Assembly (NCBI RefSeq): GCF_000969445.1
Contig: NZ_JZEY01000054.1
Span: 1,860,001-1,924,000, forward strand
From: Devosia chinhatensis
GTDB lineage: Bacteria; Pseudomonadota; Alphaproteobacteria; Rhizobiales; Devosiaceae
Direction: 5' to 3'
DNA length: 64,000 nt
Under the pieces are notes generated by a model. It did not search any database and was not told the DNA's origin. It worked only from the letters and a program-made list of their open reading frames with translations. Positions 8,021 through 22,324 of the stretch are shown in pieces. How positions within the stretch are numbered: position 1 is the first letter of the stretch; each line of letters begins with the position of its first letter. Both the position numbers and the translations under genes were made by a program.

Positions 8021-9343
8021 CTATTCGGCGGGCGCCGCGACACGCCGGCTGCGAAACCATTGCAGGATCGACACATCGATCCCGGCCGTGCGCAGCGCAA
8101 TGACCCAGAGCGCCAGGGACCACACGGTGATCCCGATCAGTGCTGCCATGGCCGCGCCGATCAGGTGATAGGCCGGCACCAGAACCGCATTGCCGGCAAC
8201 CAGCGTGCCCATGCCCAGCAGCACCGCCGGCAGGCTCGCCCAAGGCCGGTCATGGATCGACAGCACCATCGAGGCCGGCCCGAGCGCCGAGCGCACGACC
8301 AGCGCCAGGCAGAGGATCGCCAGCGGCGTCGCTCCTGCCGTGAACCCGTCGCCGAACAGCAGCAGGGCAAAGGGGCCGCCAAGGATCACCAGCACCAGCA
8401 GAGCCAGCGACACCAGCGTCGCCACGAGATTTGCTTCGCCAACCTTGCGGTGGAACGCGGCGCGATCGTCCTGCGCCTCGCTCTCGAACATATCCGGCAA
8501 GGTCACCGCATAGACGGCCGCCACCCCGAAGGAGACGAGCGAAAAGATGCGGGTACAGACCCCGAATATGGCCAGTTCCTCCTTGTCGAGCAGCGTGGCC
8601 AGCAGCAGCAAGTCGATGTCGAAGAAGAAGTCGGTTGCCAGCGTGATCAGCACCCAGGGCGCCGCGAACCGCCACCAGCGCGGCCATTCGCTCGCCCGCT
8701 CCGGCCCGCTGTCCTCCAGCCGCCCCAATGTACGCATCACGAAGCCGAAATGGACCGCCGCGATCGCTACATAGCCCAGCGCGATGATCCACAGCATGGT
8801 GCCGAACCCGGTCTCCGGTTCGAACAGAGCCGCACAGGCAAGGAAGGTCCCCAGCACCACCATCGGTCGGAAGATGCCATCGGCGAAAAAGCCGGCAAAC
8901 GGGCGCTTGAGCCCGACCAGCACCCCGCCGTTGACATAGACAAGTGCCGTGGCCAGCGACAATAGAGCCACCGGTACGAAGTGGTTGCCCACCACGCCGC
9001 CGGCCTGCCCCAGCGCCCCCAGCAGGAGCGGCCCGACGATCACCAGCGCCACGAAGGCCAGCAGCACGTGGCCATAGGCGCGCTTTATGAATGCCACCAA
9101 TTGCCGCTTTTCCCCGCGCGCCCGATACTCCGCGGCAAAATAAGTGCCCACGGTTTGGAAACCGAGCGGCATGGCCACCGCAATCAGGTTCACGGTGGCG
9201 ATGATCAGCAGATATTCGCCCAGGATTGCCGCGCCCCAGAAGCGCGCGATGAACGCCTGAACGAGAAAAATGAGACCGGCGCCGAACAGGCGCCCGCCAA
9301 AGATGATGGTGGACTGGGAGGCGAGCCTCCGGGCAAGGCTCAT
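8021..9343 (-). CDS. Polysaccharide flippase-like membrane protein (MOP superfamily)
   Basis: A 440-residue protein with about twelve membrane segments, related to Wzx-type lipopolysaccharide/polysaccharide exporters that flip lipid-linked sugars across the inner membrane. The frame runs open far upstream, but the ATG at 9343 overlaps the stop of the FemAB gene by ATGA, fixing the start and indicating translational coupling. The first residues (MSLARRLASQSTIIFGGRLF) are typical of the family. With the FemAB-like enzyme it forms a two-gene unit that probably builds or decorates a surface glycan. No glycosyltransferases lie beside it. Confidence 0.82.
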   Translation of the reverse strand: MSLARRLASQSTIIFGGRLFGAGLIFLVQAFIARFWGAAILGEYLLIIATVNLIAVAMPLGFQTVGTYFAAEYRARGEKRQLVAFIKRAYGHVLLAFVALVIVGPLLLGALGQAGGVVGNHFVPVALLSLATALVYVNGGVLVGLKRPFAGFFADGIFRPMVVLGTFLACAALFEPETGFGTMLWIIALGYVAIAAVHFGFVMRTLGRLEDSGPERASEWPRWWRFAAPWVLITLATDFFFDIDLLLLATLLDKEELAIFGVCTRIFSLVSFGVAAVYAVTLPDMFESEAQDDRAAFHRKVGEANLVATLVSLALLVLVILGGPFALLLFGDGFTAGATPLAILCLALVVRSALGPASMVLSIHDRPWASLPAVLLGMGTLVAGNAVLVPAYHLIGAAMAALIGITVWSLALWVIALRTAGIDVSILQWFRSRRVAAPAE

Positions 9344-10518
9344 CGCAAGTAATCGTCCAGTTCGGGCACGGGCTGGTCTGGCTTGGCGCGCCCGGGCCGC
9401 ACGGCATCGATCCGGCGCTTGACCACGTTGACCGCCTCGCGTGCACCGAACGCAGCATTGCCCAGCCAGAAGGCCAGCGGGCGTGATGCATAATTGGCCA
9501 CCGGCGGCACAGGCTGGATCAGGCCCGCATCGCCCACCATGCCCTTCTTGAACTGGTGCAGCCCCAGGAAACCGTCGGTCCCGCCCAGGTCGTACCAATT
9601 GGCGCGCGTATGGTCGCGCAGCCAGCGGATGATGTGCCAATGCATGAAATAGCCCGCGCGCAGCGGCAGGGCGCGGTCATTGGTGGCGCCATAGAGATAG
9701 ACCGCCCGGTCGCCCGCCTTGAAGATCAGTGCCCCGGCGACGATTTCCCCGCCTTCGCGCACGAAGAACAGCTCGGGCCGCAATGGCTCGTCCATGCCCA
9801 TCAGCTGGTCGATCGTGTCATAGGCCGAATGATCGGGGAATTGCTTGCGGTCCGACATCGCCTCGTAGAGCGTCTTGAATTCGCCCAGGCGCTCGGGTCC
9901 GGCATGCTCGAAGCCGAGCTCGGCCTTTTCCGACTTGTTGAGCTGGCGGCGCCAGGTCTGCTGGAAGCTCTTGCGCTGCGCCTCGTCGCTGAGCCGCAGG
10001 TTGACGAGATAGCGATGCGGGTAGGTCAGCGCAAAGCCGCGCCGGAAGCCGCGCGCCCGCAAGGCCAGGTAATCGCCGTTGACCGGCGCTGCGGACGTAT
10101 GCGGCAGGATGGACAGCATCATGCCCCGCTTGTTCGCATAATCGCTCACCAGCGCGTCGATCATCCCGGCATAGATCGCCGGAGCGTCCTCGGCATGCAT
10201 GTCCGCCAGCATCGGCGCCCACTTGGCGAGCGCGATCCGCCCGACGCCCAGCGGCAGCTTCTGCACCATGATCAGCGCGCCGCCCACGATCCGTCCGTCG
10301 CGCGCGAAAAGGTTCGGCTCCAGCGTCACGCCCGGCCAGCGGATGGCGGCAAAGCCATGCAGCTGTTCCTGGCAGACGCCATCGAAACTGCCCACCACGC
10401 TGTCCCAATAGGCCCCCTCGACGCGGTGCATGAGCAGCGCACCGGCGGGACTGGCGGCCTGCTCCTGCTGGCGCGAGAACGTCATGGTTTCGGAAACCAA
10501 ACCTGCAATGGCCGACAT
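9340..10518 (-). CDS. FemAB-like GNAT acyltransferase
   Basis: A 392-residue protein with two GNAT-like halves, as in FemX/FemAB aminoacyltransferases and their proteobacterial exopolysaccharide-associated relatives. The C-terminal half holds FFVREGGEIVAGALIFKAGDRAVYLYGAT and a YDLGGTDG motif seen in FemAB-related proteins. GGAAG lies 9 bases before the ATG. It is translationally coupled to the flippase downstream. It may transfer an aminoacyl or acyl group to a lipid-linked sugar, with the flippase exporting the product; this is inference. Confidence 0.78.
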   Translation of the reverse strand: MSAIAGLVSETMTFSRQQEQAASPAGALLMHRVEGAYWDSVVGSFDGVCQEQLHGFAAIRWPGVTLEPNLFARDGRIVGGALIMVQKLPLGVGRIALAKWAPMLADMHAEDAPAIYAGMIDALVSDYANKRGMMLSILPHTSAAPVNGDYLALRARGFRRGFALTYPHRYLVNLRLSDEAQRKSFQQTWRRQLNKSEKAELGFEHAGPERLGEFKTLYEAMSDRKQFPDHSAYDTIDQLMGMDEPLRPELFFVREGGEIVAGALIFKAGDRAVYLYGATNDRALPLRAGYFMHWHIIRWLRDHTRANWYDLGGTDGFLGLHQFKKGMVGDAGLIQPVPPVANYASRPLAFWLGNAAFGAREAVNVVKRRIDAVRPGRAKPDQPVPELDDYLR

Positions 10519-16278: not shown

Positions 16279-17841
16279 CTAGCCCGCCAGCGCGCCCTGG
16301 GCCGAAGCGCCGCGTTCGATCATCACCCGGTTGAGCGCGTTGAGATAAGCGCGGGCCGATGCCACCAGCGTATCGGGCTCGGCCGCATTGCCCGAAGCGA
16401 TCCGCCCGTTCATTTCGAGGCGCACATGGGCGCTGGCCTGCGCGTCGGTACCGCCGGTCACGCCATCGACGGCATAGAGCACCAGATGCGGGTCCTGTCC
16501 CGAGGCCGCCTTGATGGCGTTGAAGATCGCGTCGACCGAGCCTGTCCCTTCGTAGGACACGGCGGTTTGTTCGCCGTCGATGGTCACAACCAGATTGCAC
16601 TTGTGCGTGCCGCCGGTCTTGCTGACCACTTCCATATCCACCAGCCGGATGCGGTCCCCGACGGAGCCGACCTCGTCATCGACCAGCGCCACGATATCGG
16701 CGTCATAGACATGCTTCTTGCGGTCGGCCAGGTCCTTGAAGCGCACGAAAGCTTCCTGAAAAGCATTGTCGCCCAGCTCGTAACCCAGCTCCTTGAGCTT
16801 GTCCTTGAACGCGGCGCGGCCCGAATGCTTGCCCATCACCAAGGTGGTTTCCTTGATGCCGACGCTCGCCGGGGTCATGATCTCATAGGTCTCGGCATTC
16901 TTGAGCATGCCGTCCTGATGAATGCCGCTTTCATGCGCGAAGGCGTTCTTTCCCACGATTGCCTTGTTGTACTGCACCGGAAAATTCGACGCCGCCGACA
17001 CGATCCGGCTGGCCCGCGACAGCTGGGTGGTTTCGATCTCGGTGTAATAGGGCATGGCATCCCCGCGCGTGCGCAAGGCCATCACCACTTCCTCGAGCGC
17101 GGCATTGCCCGCGCGCTCGCCCAATCCGTTGATCGTGCATTCGATCTGCCGCGCCCCGCCCGCGACACCGGCCAGCGAATTGGCGACGGCCATGCCCAGA
17201 TCGTCATGGCAATGCACCGAGAAGATGGCCTTATCGGCGCCCGGCACGCTCTCGATGATGTCCTTGAACATCTTGAAATGCTCTTCGGGCACCGCGTAGC
17301 CCACCGTGTCGGGCAAGTTGATCGTCGTCGCGCCGGCCTTGATGGCCGTTTCCACACAGCGCTTGAGGAATTCCAGCGGCGTGCGGGTCGCATCCATCGC
17401 GCTCCATTCCACGTCGTCGATCAGGTTGCGCGCCTGCGCCACCGTGCGGGCGATGATCTCGATCACCTCGTCCTCGGTCTTTTTCATCTGGTGCGCCAGA
17501 TGGATCGGCGAGGTCGACACGAAGGTATGGATACGTCCCTGCTGGGCATGGCGCACCGCTTCGCCCGCCCGGTCGATATCGGCCGTTATGGCGCGGGCCA
17601 GCCCCGCCACGCGCGCCTTCTTGACATGCTTGGCGACGGCCACCACGGCCTCGAAATCTCCCACCGACGCAATGGGGAAGCCGGCTTCGATAATATCGAC
17701 GCCCATCTCGTCCAGCGCATCGGCCACCTGGAGTTTCTCCTCCAGCGTCATGGTCGCGCCGGGCGATTGCTCGCCGTCGCGCAGCGTGGTGTCGAAGATG
17801 AAGACGCGGTCTTTGTTGGACTGGGTGGCAGAAGCAGACAT
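16279..17841 (-). CDS. leuA: 2-isopropylmalate synthase
   Basis: A 520-residue enzyme that condenses acetyl-CoA with 2-oxoisovalerate, the first committed step of leucine synthesis. [14 protein letters not shown] near residue 19 and the [13 protein letters not shown] metal site are classical, followed by [15 protein letters not shown]. The C-terminal 130 residues form the LeuA regulatory domain that senses leucine. Length fits the standard bacterial form. It stands alone, with ilvC, ilvN and ilvB elsewhere in the window. I found no leucine-rich leader peptide upstream. Confidence 0.97.
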
Positions 17842-18236: not shown

Positions 18237-18252
18237 TTAAGAAACAGTTAAG
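18237..18252 (+). promoter_or_regulatory. CtrA-box-like direct repeat
   Basis: TTAA-N7-TTAAG resembles the CtrA site TTAA-N7-TTAAC, with one base off at the end. It lies 27 bases before the lipoprotein start codon. A chance match is possible. Confidence 0.25.
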
Positions 18253-18278: not shown

Positions 18279-19238
18279 ATGCTTGCAAAATTTGTACTGG
18301 CCGTAACCTGCGCAACTCTGCTGTCCGGCTGCAGCCTTGCCAATCTCATGAGCAATGCCGCCCCGGTGGCGCCCGCGCCGGCGACACCCCCGGCTGCCGG
18401 CTCCGCCGCGAGTACCAATCTCAGTTCCTCGCAGGTCCTGAGAGCCTATACGCAGACCTTCGCGACGCCCGCCTTCACCTCCGTCACCGCAGCACAGACC
18501 ACGGGCATCGCCGGCTATGCGGCCGGTCCGCGCCTGCCCACCGCGTCCGCCAGCGCCAGCAGTTTCAAGACCGCCGTGGTCAAGATCTCGCCGGATCGCC
18601 AATCCCTGGAGATCACCGTCGAGGGCCGCACCTTCGCCCTGCAGGACTTTACCGCGGGGCCCGCGACCGTGACAATCAATGGTCAGGATTACGTCGCCTA
18701 TGGCTTTAGCACCGATGGCGCTTTCCCCTCGAACGCTGACCGCAAGGACGCCGCGATCCTGGTGAACGGCACCTATTCTTCCCTCGCCATGTTCCTGCGC
18801 AATGCCGGGGACGCGATGCAGAACCAGCCTCACGTCAATGACGGCTTCGTCATGATCGCCACGGGCGGGGAAACCCCGATCAACGGCATGCCGTCCCAGA
18901 TCGTCCATTACAGTGGCCAATGGTTCACCGTCACGCCGCAATCCTTCGAAAACGGCAACTTCCTTGCACAGGCCGATTTCGCCAATCGCAGCCTCAACTG
19001 GACTGCGACCGCTCTCGACAACAGCTTCACCGATACCGGCACCGCCACCATCGATGGCAACCGCTTCGTCGGAACGCTGGCTTTCGGCGCCCTCGGCGTC
19101 AATGACAGTGCCCAGGTGGTCGGCAGCTTCTATGGCCCCAATGCCGAAGAAATCGCAGGCGTCGTCAGCGGCAATGGCACGGTCAACGGCGCGGTCGTCC
19201 CGGTCGGCGGCGGGTTCTTCGGCAATAAGGTCCCGTAA
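18279..19238 (+). CDS. TbpB-like surface lipoprotein (transferrin-binding-protein-like beta-barrel)
   Basis: A 319-residue lipoprotein. The signal peptide ends in lipobox LSGC with the lipidated Cys18, followed by an Ala/Pro-rich linker. The body is beta-rich. The C-terminal region (ATIDGNRFVGTLAF, then VGSFYGPNAEEIAGVVSG) matches the TbpB barrel-domain pattern in which a final FxGPNAxEIAG strand is conserved. The ATG at 18279 gives a proper n-region; an in-frame GTG lies 12 bases upstream. The next gene, 6 bases on, is a Slam-like translocon, so this is likely its surface-displayed client. What it binds (iron protein, heme, other) is unknown. Confidence 0.78.
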   Translation: MLAKFVLAVTCATLLSGCSLANLMSNAAPVAPAPATPPAAGSAASTNLSSSQVLRAYTQTFATPAFTSVTAAQTTGIAGYAAGPRLPTASASASSFKTAVVKISPDRQSLEITVEGRTFALQDFTAGPATVTINGQDYVAYGFSTDGAFPSNADRKDAAILVNGTYSSLAMFLRNAGDAMQNQPHVNDGFVMIATGGETPINGMPSQIVHYSGQWFTVTPQSFENGNFLAQADFANRSLNWTATALDNSFTDTGTATIDGNRFVGTLAFGALGVNDSAQVVGSFYGPNAEEIAGVVSGNGTVNGAVVPVGGGFFGNKVP

Positions 19239-19244
19239 GCATCC

Positions 19245-20516
19245 ATGCGCCTGAAACGCATCCTGCTTGCCATCGTCGCCCTGCTCTGGGCGACGATGGC
19301 GACCTACGCTGCCAGTTTCGCCGAGCTCGAGGCACATATTGCCGGCGGTGATTTCGTCTCCGCCGAGCAGGCGGCCTTGCGTCTCGATACGGCGGAAGCG
19401 GGCGACTTCTTTGTCGTCTATGTCGAGGCGACGCGACGCATTGCCGGCGGCGACTGCCTGTCCGCAACCCCGTTGCTGGAAACCCTCGCGGTGATCCGCC
19501 CCGGCTTCATGTCCGCCCACCAATTGCTCTACCTGTGCGATATCGAGCGGGGCGACGAGTCTTCGGCGGCACAGCGGCTCGACGTCATGCTCGCCCTTCT
19601 GCCCGAAGGCGATGCCCGCGATGTCGTGCTGACCCTTCGCCGCACTCTTGCGGTGGCCGCAGGACCGGTATTCAGCATTTATGGCGACATCATTCCCTCG
19701 ACCAATGCCAACCGGCAGACGGCGGCCACCAATCTCAATGGGCTGGTCATACCCGACGCCAACCGCGCGACCTCGGGCGTCACCCTGCGCGGCGGCGCCA
19801 ATGTCAGCTTCGGGCTCTTCAATGCCGGGAATATGGCTGTCTCGATGCTGGTTCGGGGAGAACTGGATTACTCGACGGTCACGCGCTCGTTTGCCCCCCG
19901 CATGACCTTCGAGACGCCGGTCAGCTTCCAGCGCGGCGCCGTCACCTATGGATTCGCCCCGCTTTTCGGTGCCGATTTCGACTCTGTCGGTCTTGAGCGA
20001 TTGCGCATCGGCGTCAGGGGCTTTGCCGCCTGGCAAGTCCAGCCGGGCTCCTTGCTCAGTCTCGAAACCACCGCCTATCTCGCGCGCTATCCCGTCAAGA
20101 CCTACCTCGATGGCACCTATCTCGAAGCCAGCATTGCCCATGCCTATGTCCTGACGCCGGAACTGACCGTGACCAACAAGCTTGGCGGCGCGCTCGATCT
20201 GCCCGACGATCTCAAGCGGCATCGCCTCACCGCCGAGATCATGACCCGGCTCGATTATATGGGGCACAACGGCCTCGTCCTGGGCGCCAGCGCAACGCTG
20301 GGCACGCGGCTGCACAATATGCCCCCGCCCCTCTCCCTGGGTCCAAATCAGGTGGATGTCTTTGCCGTTGGCAGGGCCGAAATCGGCCATCAGGCGCTGG
20401 CTCTCGGCCCTTTCATTCCCATGCTCTATTATCAATATTCAAAGCAGGTGTCGGATAATGTGTTCTATGATTATGAAAGCCAGGACATCGGCATCAGGCT
20501 GAGGGCACGGATGTGA
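19245..20516 (+). CDS. Slam-like outer-membrane translocon (DUF560 barrel with N-terminal TPR)
   Basis: A 423-residue protein with signal peptide 1-22. Residues 24-140 are helical TPR-like repeats (FAELEAHIAGGDFVSAEQAAL and similar). From about residue 145 it is a beta-barrel beginning with IPSTNANRQTAATN and PDANRATSGVTLRGG, and ending in alternating strands that finish with an Arg-Met terminus. This is the layout of surface lipoprotein assembly modulators, which move TbpB/HpuA-type lipoproteins to the cell surface. It is somewhat shorter than neisserial Slam1. It sits 6 bases after its likely client lipoprotein and overlaps the next gene by one base, so the three are one operon. Confidence 0.72.
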   Translation: MRLKRILLAIVALLWATMATYAASFAELEAHIAGGDFVSAEQAALRLDTAEAGDFFVVYVEATRRIAGGDCLSATPLLETLAVIRPGFMSAHQLLYLCDIERGDESSAAQRLDVMLALLPEGDARDVVLTLRRTLAVAAGPVFSIYGDIIPSTNANRQTAATNLNGLVIPDANRATSGVTLRGGANVSFGLFNAGNMAVSMLVRGELDYSTVTRSFAPRMTFETPVSFQRGAVTYGFAPLFGADFDSVGLERLRIGVRGFAAWQVQPGSLLSLETTAYLARYPVKTYLDGTYLEASIAHAYVLTPELTVTNKLGGALDLPDDLKRHRLTAEIMTRLDYMGHNGLVLGASATLGTRLHNMPPPLSLGPNQVDVFAVGRAEIGHQALALGPFIPMLYYQYSKQVSDNVFYDYESQDIGIRLRARM

Positions 20517-21418
20517 TGATGAAGCCGACCGCTGCACTCCTCTTTCTGCTCGCAGCCGGGCCGGCACTGGCCCAGGCCGAAGTCGAGGTGAGCGTCGATG
20601 CCGGTCTTGCCGCTGAGCGCTTCACCATCTGGCATGATGCCAGTGCCCAATTTCCGATCCTGGGATCGCCGACGTCGATTCTCGACCACGTCGCTTTGAT
20701 CGGGCCAAGTCTATCCCTCTCGGCAAGCACAGGCCTGCTCGACCCCGTTTATGTAAAGGCCGACCTGACGGCCACGACCTTTGTCATGGGTGCATTCCAC
20801 GACACCGATTATCTGGCCGGCAATCTGCTGTTCTCCGATACATGGAGCGATGTTCGCGGCGGTAAGCTCCAGGCGGGCCTCAAGTTCGCGCCACCGCAAA
20901 TGGCCGCCTTCCCCCTCGGCGCTGGTCAGTTCCGACCCTATGTCACCACATCAGCTGAAGCCACCGCGCTCACGGCCCATGGGCTGATCTGTACTTTGGC
21001 CTGCGCCGTAGGCCCGCTGCCCGCCGGCCAGGCGGTTATCGAACAGGCTATATATTCTGGAGATATCGGCCTCGGCGGCGCCTGGCAGACCGAAGGCGCA
21101 CACGGCACGTTCACGGCCTATGGGGAACTGGCCGTAGGCCGTCTCAGGGTCTTCGACAGCCATCTGCTGCGCGCCGATCTCGGGCGCACACCCAATATCG
21201 TCTACGGCTTCACCACGATTTCGGCCGTAGCGGGCCTCGCCCACGACTGGTCCATTTCAGAAAATCTGGCCCTCGTTGTTTCCGGCGAAGTCCAGGGCAC
21301 TTACGGCATGGGCGACGTCCTTTTCGGCCCGGGCCTCGCGTCCCCACTCGGCCCCTACCCGGCCTGGCTCAGTACCTTTGGCGGCAAACTCTCCGCCGGT
21401 CTCACGGGTCATTTCTAG
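20516..21418 (+). CDS. Putative outer-membrane beta-barrel protein of the Slam-like operon
   Basis: A 300-residue protein with a signal peptide ending ALAQ near residue 20, then repeated amphipathic strands. The C terminus GGKLSAGLTGHF ends in Phe, as BAM-dependent outer-membrane proteins do. The start ATG at 20516 shares a base with the upstream stop (TGATG); a GTG at 20513 and ATG at 20519 are alternatives. I recognise no family. Two Cys (ICTLAC) in one loop could form a disulfide. It may be a receptor, porin or second partner for the surface lipoprotein; this is inferred only from the operon. Confidence 0.7.
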   Translation: MMKPTAALLFLLAAGPALAQAEVEVSVDAGLAAERFTIWHDASAQFPILGSPTSILDHVALIGPSLSLSASTGLLDPVYVKADLTATTFVMGAFHDTDYLAGNLLFSDTWSDVRGGKLQAGLKFAPPQMAAFPLGAGQFRPYVTTSAEATALTAHGLICTLACAVGPLPAGQAVIEQAIYSGDIGLGGAWQTEGAHGTFTAYGELAVGRLRVFDSHLLRADLGRTPNIVYGFTTISAVAGLAHDWSISENLALVVSGEVQGTYGMGDVLFGPGLASPLGPYPAWLSTFGGKLSAGLTGHF

Positions 21419-21439: not shown

Positions 21440-22324
21440 TCAATCGCCCAGGTCGAGCACACCTTCGGCCACCACCACCGCGTGCCCGCCGATGGCGCCA
21501 TGGGTCAGCTTGTCATCCTGTTTGCGGAACTGAAGCTGGATATGGCAGGCCCGGCCCATTTCCACCCCCTGGCGTAGCACCAGCTCGAATTGTCCATTCG
21601 CCATTTCCTGCTCGGCCAGCAATCCGATCAAGGCCGCAGCTGCCGACCCGGTCCCCGGATCTTCACCCAGGCCCATGCCGAACATGCGGGCGGCGATGTC
21701 GTTTTCCGGCTCGTTGGGGGTCAGCGTGAACACATAGGCGGAATGATGATCGTGGTGGAACACCTGGTTCCACGCCGTGCGATTGACCGCAATGCGCTTG
21801 AGCACGCCAGCGTCGCGCACCGGAATCAGGTGGAACGTGACCCCGGCCGAAAACACGCAGGGCTTGAAGAGATCGCAGCCGATATCCTCGACCTCGATAC
21901 CCAGTGCCTGCGCGATGGCCAGTTTGTTGGGCAGCTCGGCCAGGCGCGCCGGCAGCCTGGGCAGGGTGAAGCGTGCTTCCCCCGTGCGGCGGTCGACGCG
22001 GTCGAACAAAGCCGTCACCAGGCCCACCTTTTCTTCGATCCGCAATGCCGCTGCCTTGCTCTGCAAGCCCAGCACCACTGCTGCCCCCACCGTGGGGTGG
22101 CCGGCAAAGGGCAATTCCGTGTAGGGGGTAAAAATCCGTACCGACGCCGAGTTCCGCTCGTTCTGCGGCTTGCACAGAAACACCGTCTCGCTGAGGTTGA
22201 ATTCCTTGGCGATGGCCTGCATCTCCCCGTCGAGCAAGCCATCGGCCTTGGGCACCACCGCCAGCGGATTGCCGGACAGCGCCGATTTGGTGAAGACGTC
22301 CAGAACCAGATAGGGCAGTTTCAC
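21440..22324 (-). CDS. PhzF family isomerase/epimerase
   Basis: A 294-residue PhzF-fold protein. The N terminus YLVLDVFTKSALSGNPLAVV, the NLSETVFL segment with the likely catalytic Glu, FAGHPTVGAA and the C-terminal GEDPGTGSAAAAL are the family signatures. PhzF isomerises an aromatic intermediate in phenazine synthesis, but most homologues, like this one, have no phenazine genes near them and an unknown substrate. The start is GTG, overlapping the stop of the UPF0303 gene (GTGA). It is the last gene of a three-gene operon. Confidence 0.88.
   Translation of the reverse strand: MKLPYLVLDVFTKSALSGNPLAVVPKADGLLDGEMQAIAKEFNLSETVFLCKPQNERNSASVRIFTPYTELPFAGHPTVGAAVVLGLQSKAAALRIEEKVGLVTALFDRVDRRTGEARFTLPRLPARLAELPNKLAIAQALGIEVEDIGCDLFKPCVFSAGVTFHLIPVRDAGVLKRIAVNRTAWNQVFHHDHHSAYVFTLTPNEPENDIAARMFGMGLGEDPGTGSAAAALIGLLAEQEMANGQFELVLRQGVEMGRACHIQLQFRKQDDKLTHGAIGGHAVVVAEGVLDLGD

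Follow-up and report, generated by a model that had tools for sequence, protein, structure and literature searches.

A Slam-type surface lipoprotein operon in Devosiaceae with a third gene predicted to encode a divergent omptin-like barrel

In the Slam (type 11 secretion system, T11SS) pathway, a lipoprotein is exported by way of Sec and Lol, its C-terminal barrel domain is passed outward, and the protein stays at the cell surface through its lipid anchor. In Neisseria, LbpB and NHBA are afterwards shed by NalP. Omptins, a different kind of surface protease, usually target dibasic sites. The reconstituted Neisseria Slam pathway is our model for the export steps (PMC9090332), and NalP has been described as a surface protease cutting a Slam-family lipoprotein in that genus (PMC3723659, PMC3896470). 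Published alphaproteobacterial T11SS comprise subcluster 1C of the Sphingomonadaceae (PMC8406197) and cluster 3 of the Rhodobacteraceae/Roseobacteraceae (PMC12282271). The latter study, on Pls, reported that the cargo is liberated from the cells and left the cause of the cleavage open; it does not mention Devosia or Rhizobiales (PMC12282271).

The locus considered here lies in a 64-kb stretch of DNA, the whole of which we call the window, from a host that an earlier note on the same DNA had taken for an alphaproteobacterium and that indeed belongs to the Hyphomicrobiales, family Devosiaceae, and probably to Devosia. Its three plus-strand genes are isolated between minus-strand neighbours, and the features are as follows:

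16279-17841, minus strand: 2-isopropylmalate synthase-like gene flanking the operon, recognised from sequence
18237-18251, no strand assigned: TTAA-N7-TTAA site resembling the CtrA consensus, 28-42 bases 5' of the lipoprotein start; a weak lead
18279-19238, plus strand: cargo lipoprotein gene (gene 1; 319 aa, ATG at 18279), with lipobox, disordered linker, handle/pedestal strands and C-terminal TbpB-type 8-strand barrel
18321-18332, plus strand: lipobox LSGC (LLSG before the C), read from the sequence, with the lipidated Cys18 at 18330-18332 followed by Ser
18888-19187, plus strand: TbpB_B_D barrel domain of the cargo (PF01298, 47.9 bits scored on the genome)
19245-20516, plus strand: Slam/DUF560 translocon gene (gene 2; 423 aa), with short TPR-like N terminus and C-terminal barrel
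20376-20501, plus strand: SlipAM match in the C-terminal barrel of the translocon (PF04575, profile positions 243-284)
20513-21418, plus strand: gene 3, predicted divergent omptin-fold outer-membrane protein (301 aa, GTG at 20513 or ATG at 20516), with signal sequence, 10-strand barrel and C-terminal Phe
20801-20809, plus strand: D97-x-D99 of gene 3, two putative catalytic Asp residues at the outer tip of strand 3
21155-21163, plus strand: D215-x-H217 of gene 3, putative catalytic Asp and His with which strand 7 ends
21440-22324, minus strand: PhzF-like gene flanking the operon on the other side

The gene positions and the tight spacings of 6 and -1 bases reported in the earlier note are correct; 6 bases lie between cargo and translocon genes, and the second gap is -4 or -1 bases, according to whether gene 3 starts at the GTG or at the ATG.

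Scored as a protein, the cargo matches TbpB_B_D with 44.7 bits (2.3e-11; Pfam cut-off 26), and a profile search of the genome (47.9 bits) returned it as the sole match. It also matches NCBIfam slam_lipo (1.6e-11), at 44.7 bits and hence below the cut-off of 80, and is best assigned to the superfamily of slam_lipo but not to the slam_lipo equivalog. Cys18 is invariant among 10 and among 13 aligned cargos. The AlphaFold model, built from 13 aligned sequences (pLDDT 80), superposes on the TbpB C-lobe with Z 17.5 (rmsd 3.8, 199 residues), on hemophilins with Z 15-16 and on fHbp with Z about 15 (about 14-17 over the three groups); known Slam cargo types make up nearly all the Foldseek matches listed for it. 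The cargo is a TbpB-family lipoprotein with a lipobox and a C-terminal 8-strand barrel. The fold alone does not tell its ligand. An ordinary T11SS pair devoted to haem or metal capture in the manner of hemophilin, with gene 3 as an incidental neighbour, would be in keeping with the hemophilin matches and with the frequency of haemophores among known T11SS cargos (PMC12282271); however, fHbp and TbpB fit the fold equally well, the window genes scanned include neither a TonB-dependent receptor nor a haem gene, and the flanking genes are unrelated, so that we consider this explanation very improbable.

The translocon of the window scores 20.6 bits against SlipAM as a protein and 22.1 bits on the genome, the cut-off being 22, and SlipAM matches all 13 sequences of the translocon alignment (best E 7.2e-26). 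TPR_Slam matches 2 and TPR_19 matches 5 of these 13, with no TPR match in the window protein itself. A profile search with the translocon gave a match at 1.1e-163, and the closest named records come from Maritalea porphyrae, several Pelagibacterium species and Hyphomicrobiales metagenome-assembled genomes (MAGs). We assign gene 2 to the Slam family (T11SS) and predict that it transfers the cargo to the surface. Furthermore, cargo and translocon genes are adjacent in 7/7 loci of the first comparison, and a TbpB-type lipoprotein lies directly 5' of Slam at every further locus whose 5' side is covered and not cut by a contig end, a conserved adjacency which argues that the pairing is not due to chance. 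The Slam-dependent surface lipoprotein system proposed in the earlier note is thus supported by the profile searches (TbpB_B_D above its cut-off in gene 1; SlipAM borderline in gene 2, yet found in every aligned sequence), by the structure of the cargo and by the conserved gene pairing. In Pelagibacterium xiamenense (L043:2150-5920), four TbpB-type cargo genes in tandem are followed by one Slam gene.

With Neisseria Slam1, which works with TbpB, LbpB and fHbp, the locus shares a TbpB-barrel lipoprotein adjoining a TPR plus DUF560 translocon, and the same domain models match; it differs in that the translocon is very diverged and short, no TonB-dependent receptor adjoins it, and the operon contains an extra omptin-fold gene. 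The published alphaproteobacterial clusters likewise have environmental hosts, and in cluster 3 the DUF560 protein is in some cases accompanied by a small hemophilin-like cargo, whereas the neighbours there are DUF1194, thymidylate synthase and GloA, with no omptin mentioned (PMC12282271). The designation "strong candidate for an undescribed surface-binding system" in the earlier note holds as to the presence of the system but was overstated, T11SS/DUF560 proteins of environmental alphaproteobacteria having already been published (PMC8406197, PMC12282271). The lipoprotein-Slam pair is of a kind already described; the trio with the omptin-like gene is new, and the limited collection of literature searched yielded no paper joining Slam or T11SS with an omptin. 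The novelty resides in the third barrel, correctly recognised as a barrel protein in the earlier note, which missed its nature: a divergent omptin fold with an intact catalytic tetrad.

At the sequence level, gene 3 has no Pfam, NCBIfam or PDB match, for which reason its attribution to a Pfam-known family was rejected, and none of its 12 close homologues matches Pfam Omptin (PF01278, gathering score 22.6 bits). The alignment with the Maritalea counterpart (26% identity) showed D97-x-D99 and D215-x-H217, the omptin pattern, to be kept, and the omptin hypothesis was framed from this alignment ahead of structure prediction. The AlphaFold model, obtained with only four sequences (pLDDT 83.1, pTM 0.79), is a ten-strand barrel, for which Foldseek against the PDB returned omptins at all of ranks 1-11 (E 5e-13 to 5e-9, TM about 0.6-0.75) and VIA-align gave omptins Z 24.2-26.8 over about 250-270 residues; the next best were OpcA (Z 19.9) and a Legionella porin (18.5), with all others below 15. 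The possibility that gene 3 encodes another Slam or a TonB-dependent receptor was rejected, given 10 strands, 301 aa and the omptin fold.

Strand 3 of the model (92-102) has D97/D99 close to its end, and strand 7 (198-217) closes with D215/H217; Pla likewise has its active-site residues D206 and H208 in strand 7, before loop 4 (PMC3048539). All four residues are invariant in the 12 homologues, whose identity to the window's gene 3 product is 24-34%. They are likewise invariant in a broader set of 13, which has about 16 invariant columns in all, and in the multiple alignment they share columns with the D-x-D and D-x-H of a canonical omptin. Moreover, the gene 3 profile retrieves distant proteins from further families of the order, and three of these, the bridge members L059, L061 and L063, exceed the Pfam Omptin cut-off (27.7, 24.2 and 25.8 versus 22.6 bits). 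The direct comparison of the gene 3 profile with the canonical omptin (G000:C61) by hhalign found nothing (probability 2%), so that the sequence link to omptins comes only through the bridge members; for this reason, and for lack of a Pfam match, we term gene 3 omptin-like and do not file it under PF01278. With OmpT, Pla, PgtE and IcsP it has in common the ten-strand barrel, D-x-D in strand 3, D-x-H in strand 7 and a predicted outer-membrane location; it differs in being only 12-16% identical, in escaping the Pfam model, and in its own conserved C160/C164 and HDAS...PTS motifs. On the strength of the model, gene 3 is predicted to have the omptin fold with an intact catalytic tetrad, and would then be a candidate protease.

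Every aligned homologue has C160 and C164 (20990-21004), which lie near loop 3 and perhaps form a surface disulphide. The window's genome also encodes a canonical omptin recognised by Pfam (151.7 bits; G000:C61:633341-634183, equivalent to L069:1498-2478, minus strand), the only one among 289 sampled genomes of the class. A wider omptin-like family (L050-L068), mostly invisible to Pfam, extends across further families of the order, among them f31 and f28; D-x-D and D-x-H are mostly kept where aligned, and L067 is without two of the four residues, having E and Q instead.

It is conceivable, although we judge it rather unlikely, that gene 3 has the omptin fold and acts as a non-proteolytic partner, for instance as an OpcA-like adhesin or as a barrel serving the cargo as anchor or acceptor: OpcA, with a similar ten-strand fold, is the next structural match, and TbpB-type lipoproteins usually pair with a barrel partner. 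Against this, all four catalytic positions are within the small set of invariant columns, and the exchanges in L067 indicate that their loss is possible.

As regards the linkage of the two genes, gene 3 directly follows Slam in four diverged loci, namely those of the window, Maritalea porphyrae (L041), the Dive100 MAG (L039) and the Hyphomicrobiales MAG 53_S67 (L040), with gaps of about -4 to +13 bases and with proteins that, in the other Slam-gene 3 loci, are only 24-35% identical to those of the window. Across 136 Devosiaceae genomes, gene 3 occurs in 12, Slam in 18 and both in 11 (11/12 gene 3 carriers), a co-occurrence with a Fisher value of 7e-11 that is not corrected for kinship and is inflated by it, since Pelagibacterium, in which the two genes lie apart, accounts for much of it. 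Gene 3 stands alone in Pelagibacterium and in G044, a genome of the same genus that is without Slam, which indicates that it can exist without a Slam system. In trees, the Slams from these operons lie close together, with weak support, and the operon-borne copies of gene 3 do not form one clade. The idea that the omptin-like gene generally accompanies Slam was rejected, most other Slam loci of the order being without gene 3 within 1.5-kb flanks.

The stand-alone copies, one of them in a Slam-free genome, would also suit an active omptin-type protease unrelated to the cargo, sharing its promoter by chance or through co-regulation and serving a general job such as the degradation of antimicrobial peptides, which known omptins cut (PMC11410778). 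However, the Slam-gene 3 order is kept in four loci in spite of such low identity, and the co-occurrence at the genome level is strong; we see this as a minority possibility, unlikely but to be taken seriously.

On balance, we lean slightly towards reading the operon as a type 11 (Slam) display module with a built-in surface protease that would shed the cargo or cut its ligand. The omptin fold, the invariant tetrad, the Slam-gene 3 order in four loci and the co-occurrence across genomes favour this reading of display with proteolysis; the stand-alone copies, the many Slam loci without gene 3, the lack of a single gene 3 clade, the lack of a dibasic linker site, the lack of a Pfam match and the negative direct profile comparison count against it. 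The lipoprotein would cross the inner membrane via Sec and then be handled by Lol; the Slam barrel would recognise its C-terminal barrel and pass it to the cell surface, where the lipid anchor would hold it. The omptin-like barrel, sharing the outer membrane with the cargo and with its active site facing outward, could then cut the cargo linker and cause shedding, in the way that LbpB is shed by NalP in Neisseria; alternatively, it could act on a protein ligand captured by the cargo. Compared with NalP and its shedding of LbpB/NHBA, the proposal shares a surface protease acting on a Slam-family lipoprotein, but NalP, a serine autotransporter, has its gene elsewhere, whereas here an omptin would be encoded within the Slam operon.

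Inspection of the disordered linker of the window cargo showed that basic residues are scarce and that a dibasic site is absent. Furthermore, Val213 of gene 3, two residues before D215, occupies what we take to be the position of the acidic residue in the S1 pocket of OmpT, so that the cleavage preference may differ from that of OmpT. Taken together, the linker and Val213 suggest either that the cleavage preference differs or that the ligand is the substrate. It is possible to propose, more tentatively and as something we do not yet hold to be probable, a self-contained display-and-cut module in free-living alphaproteobacteria, with an omptin-type protease dedicated to it that may have a new cleavage preference and that sheds the lipoprotein or processes a captured ligand.

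The release or use of T11SS cargos after their display at the surface is a general question, and an operon with an omptin-like barrel of its own allows it to be addressed with three genes. In addition, omptins, known mainly from animal and plant pathogens, are extended to free-living Hyphomicrobiales in a sequence form invisible to Pfam.

In 4/4 other cargos adjoining a Slam-omptin pair (L041:4917-5921; L039:2995-5861, three genes), an EF-hand-like calcium loop (e.g., DIDGDGVISQGE) lies just past the lipidated Cys. The AYTQT motif that adjoins the loop is retained in the window cargo, but the loop itself is not, and it is also missing from the 12 other cargos examined.

Concerning regulation, TTAA-N7-TTAA has a single exact match in the 64-kb window, with 0.02 expected from shuffles, and a similar site precedes the L039 cargo. 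The CtrA site, although locally striking, was set aside as evidence, its genome-wide count (25 sites versus 23 for a backward control pattern) showing no general enrichment. A search for iron-responsive TGA-N9-TCA and GATAAT-type sites upstream found none in the window. LuxR-type regulators (autoinducer-binding or PAS-like domain plus HTH) are absent from the 64-kb window and from all 9 stand-alone omptin-like loci; they flank 5/12 Slam loci (L010:2612-5162 and 9011-9442; L011:8817-9572; L012:2917-5324; L013:9152-10315; L040:2289-3428), and T11SS in Devosiaceae may possibly be under quorum or signal control.
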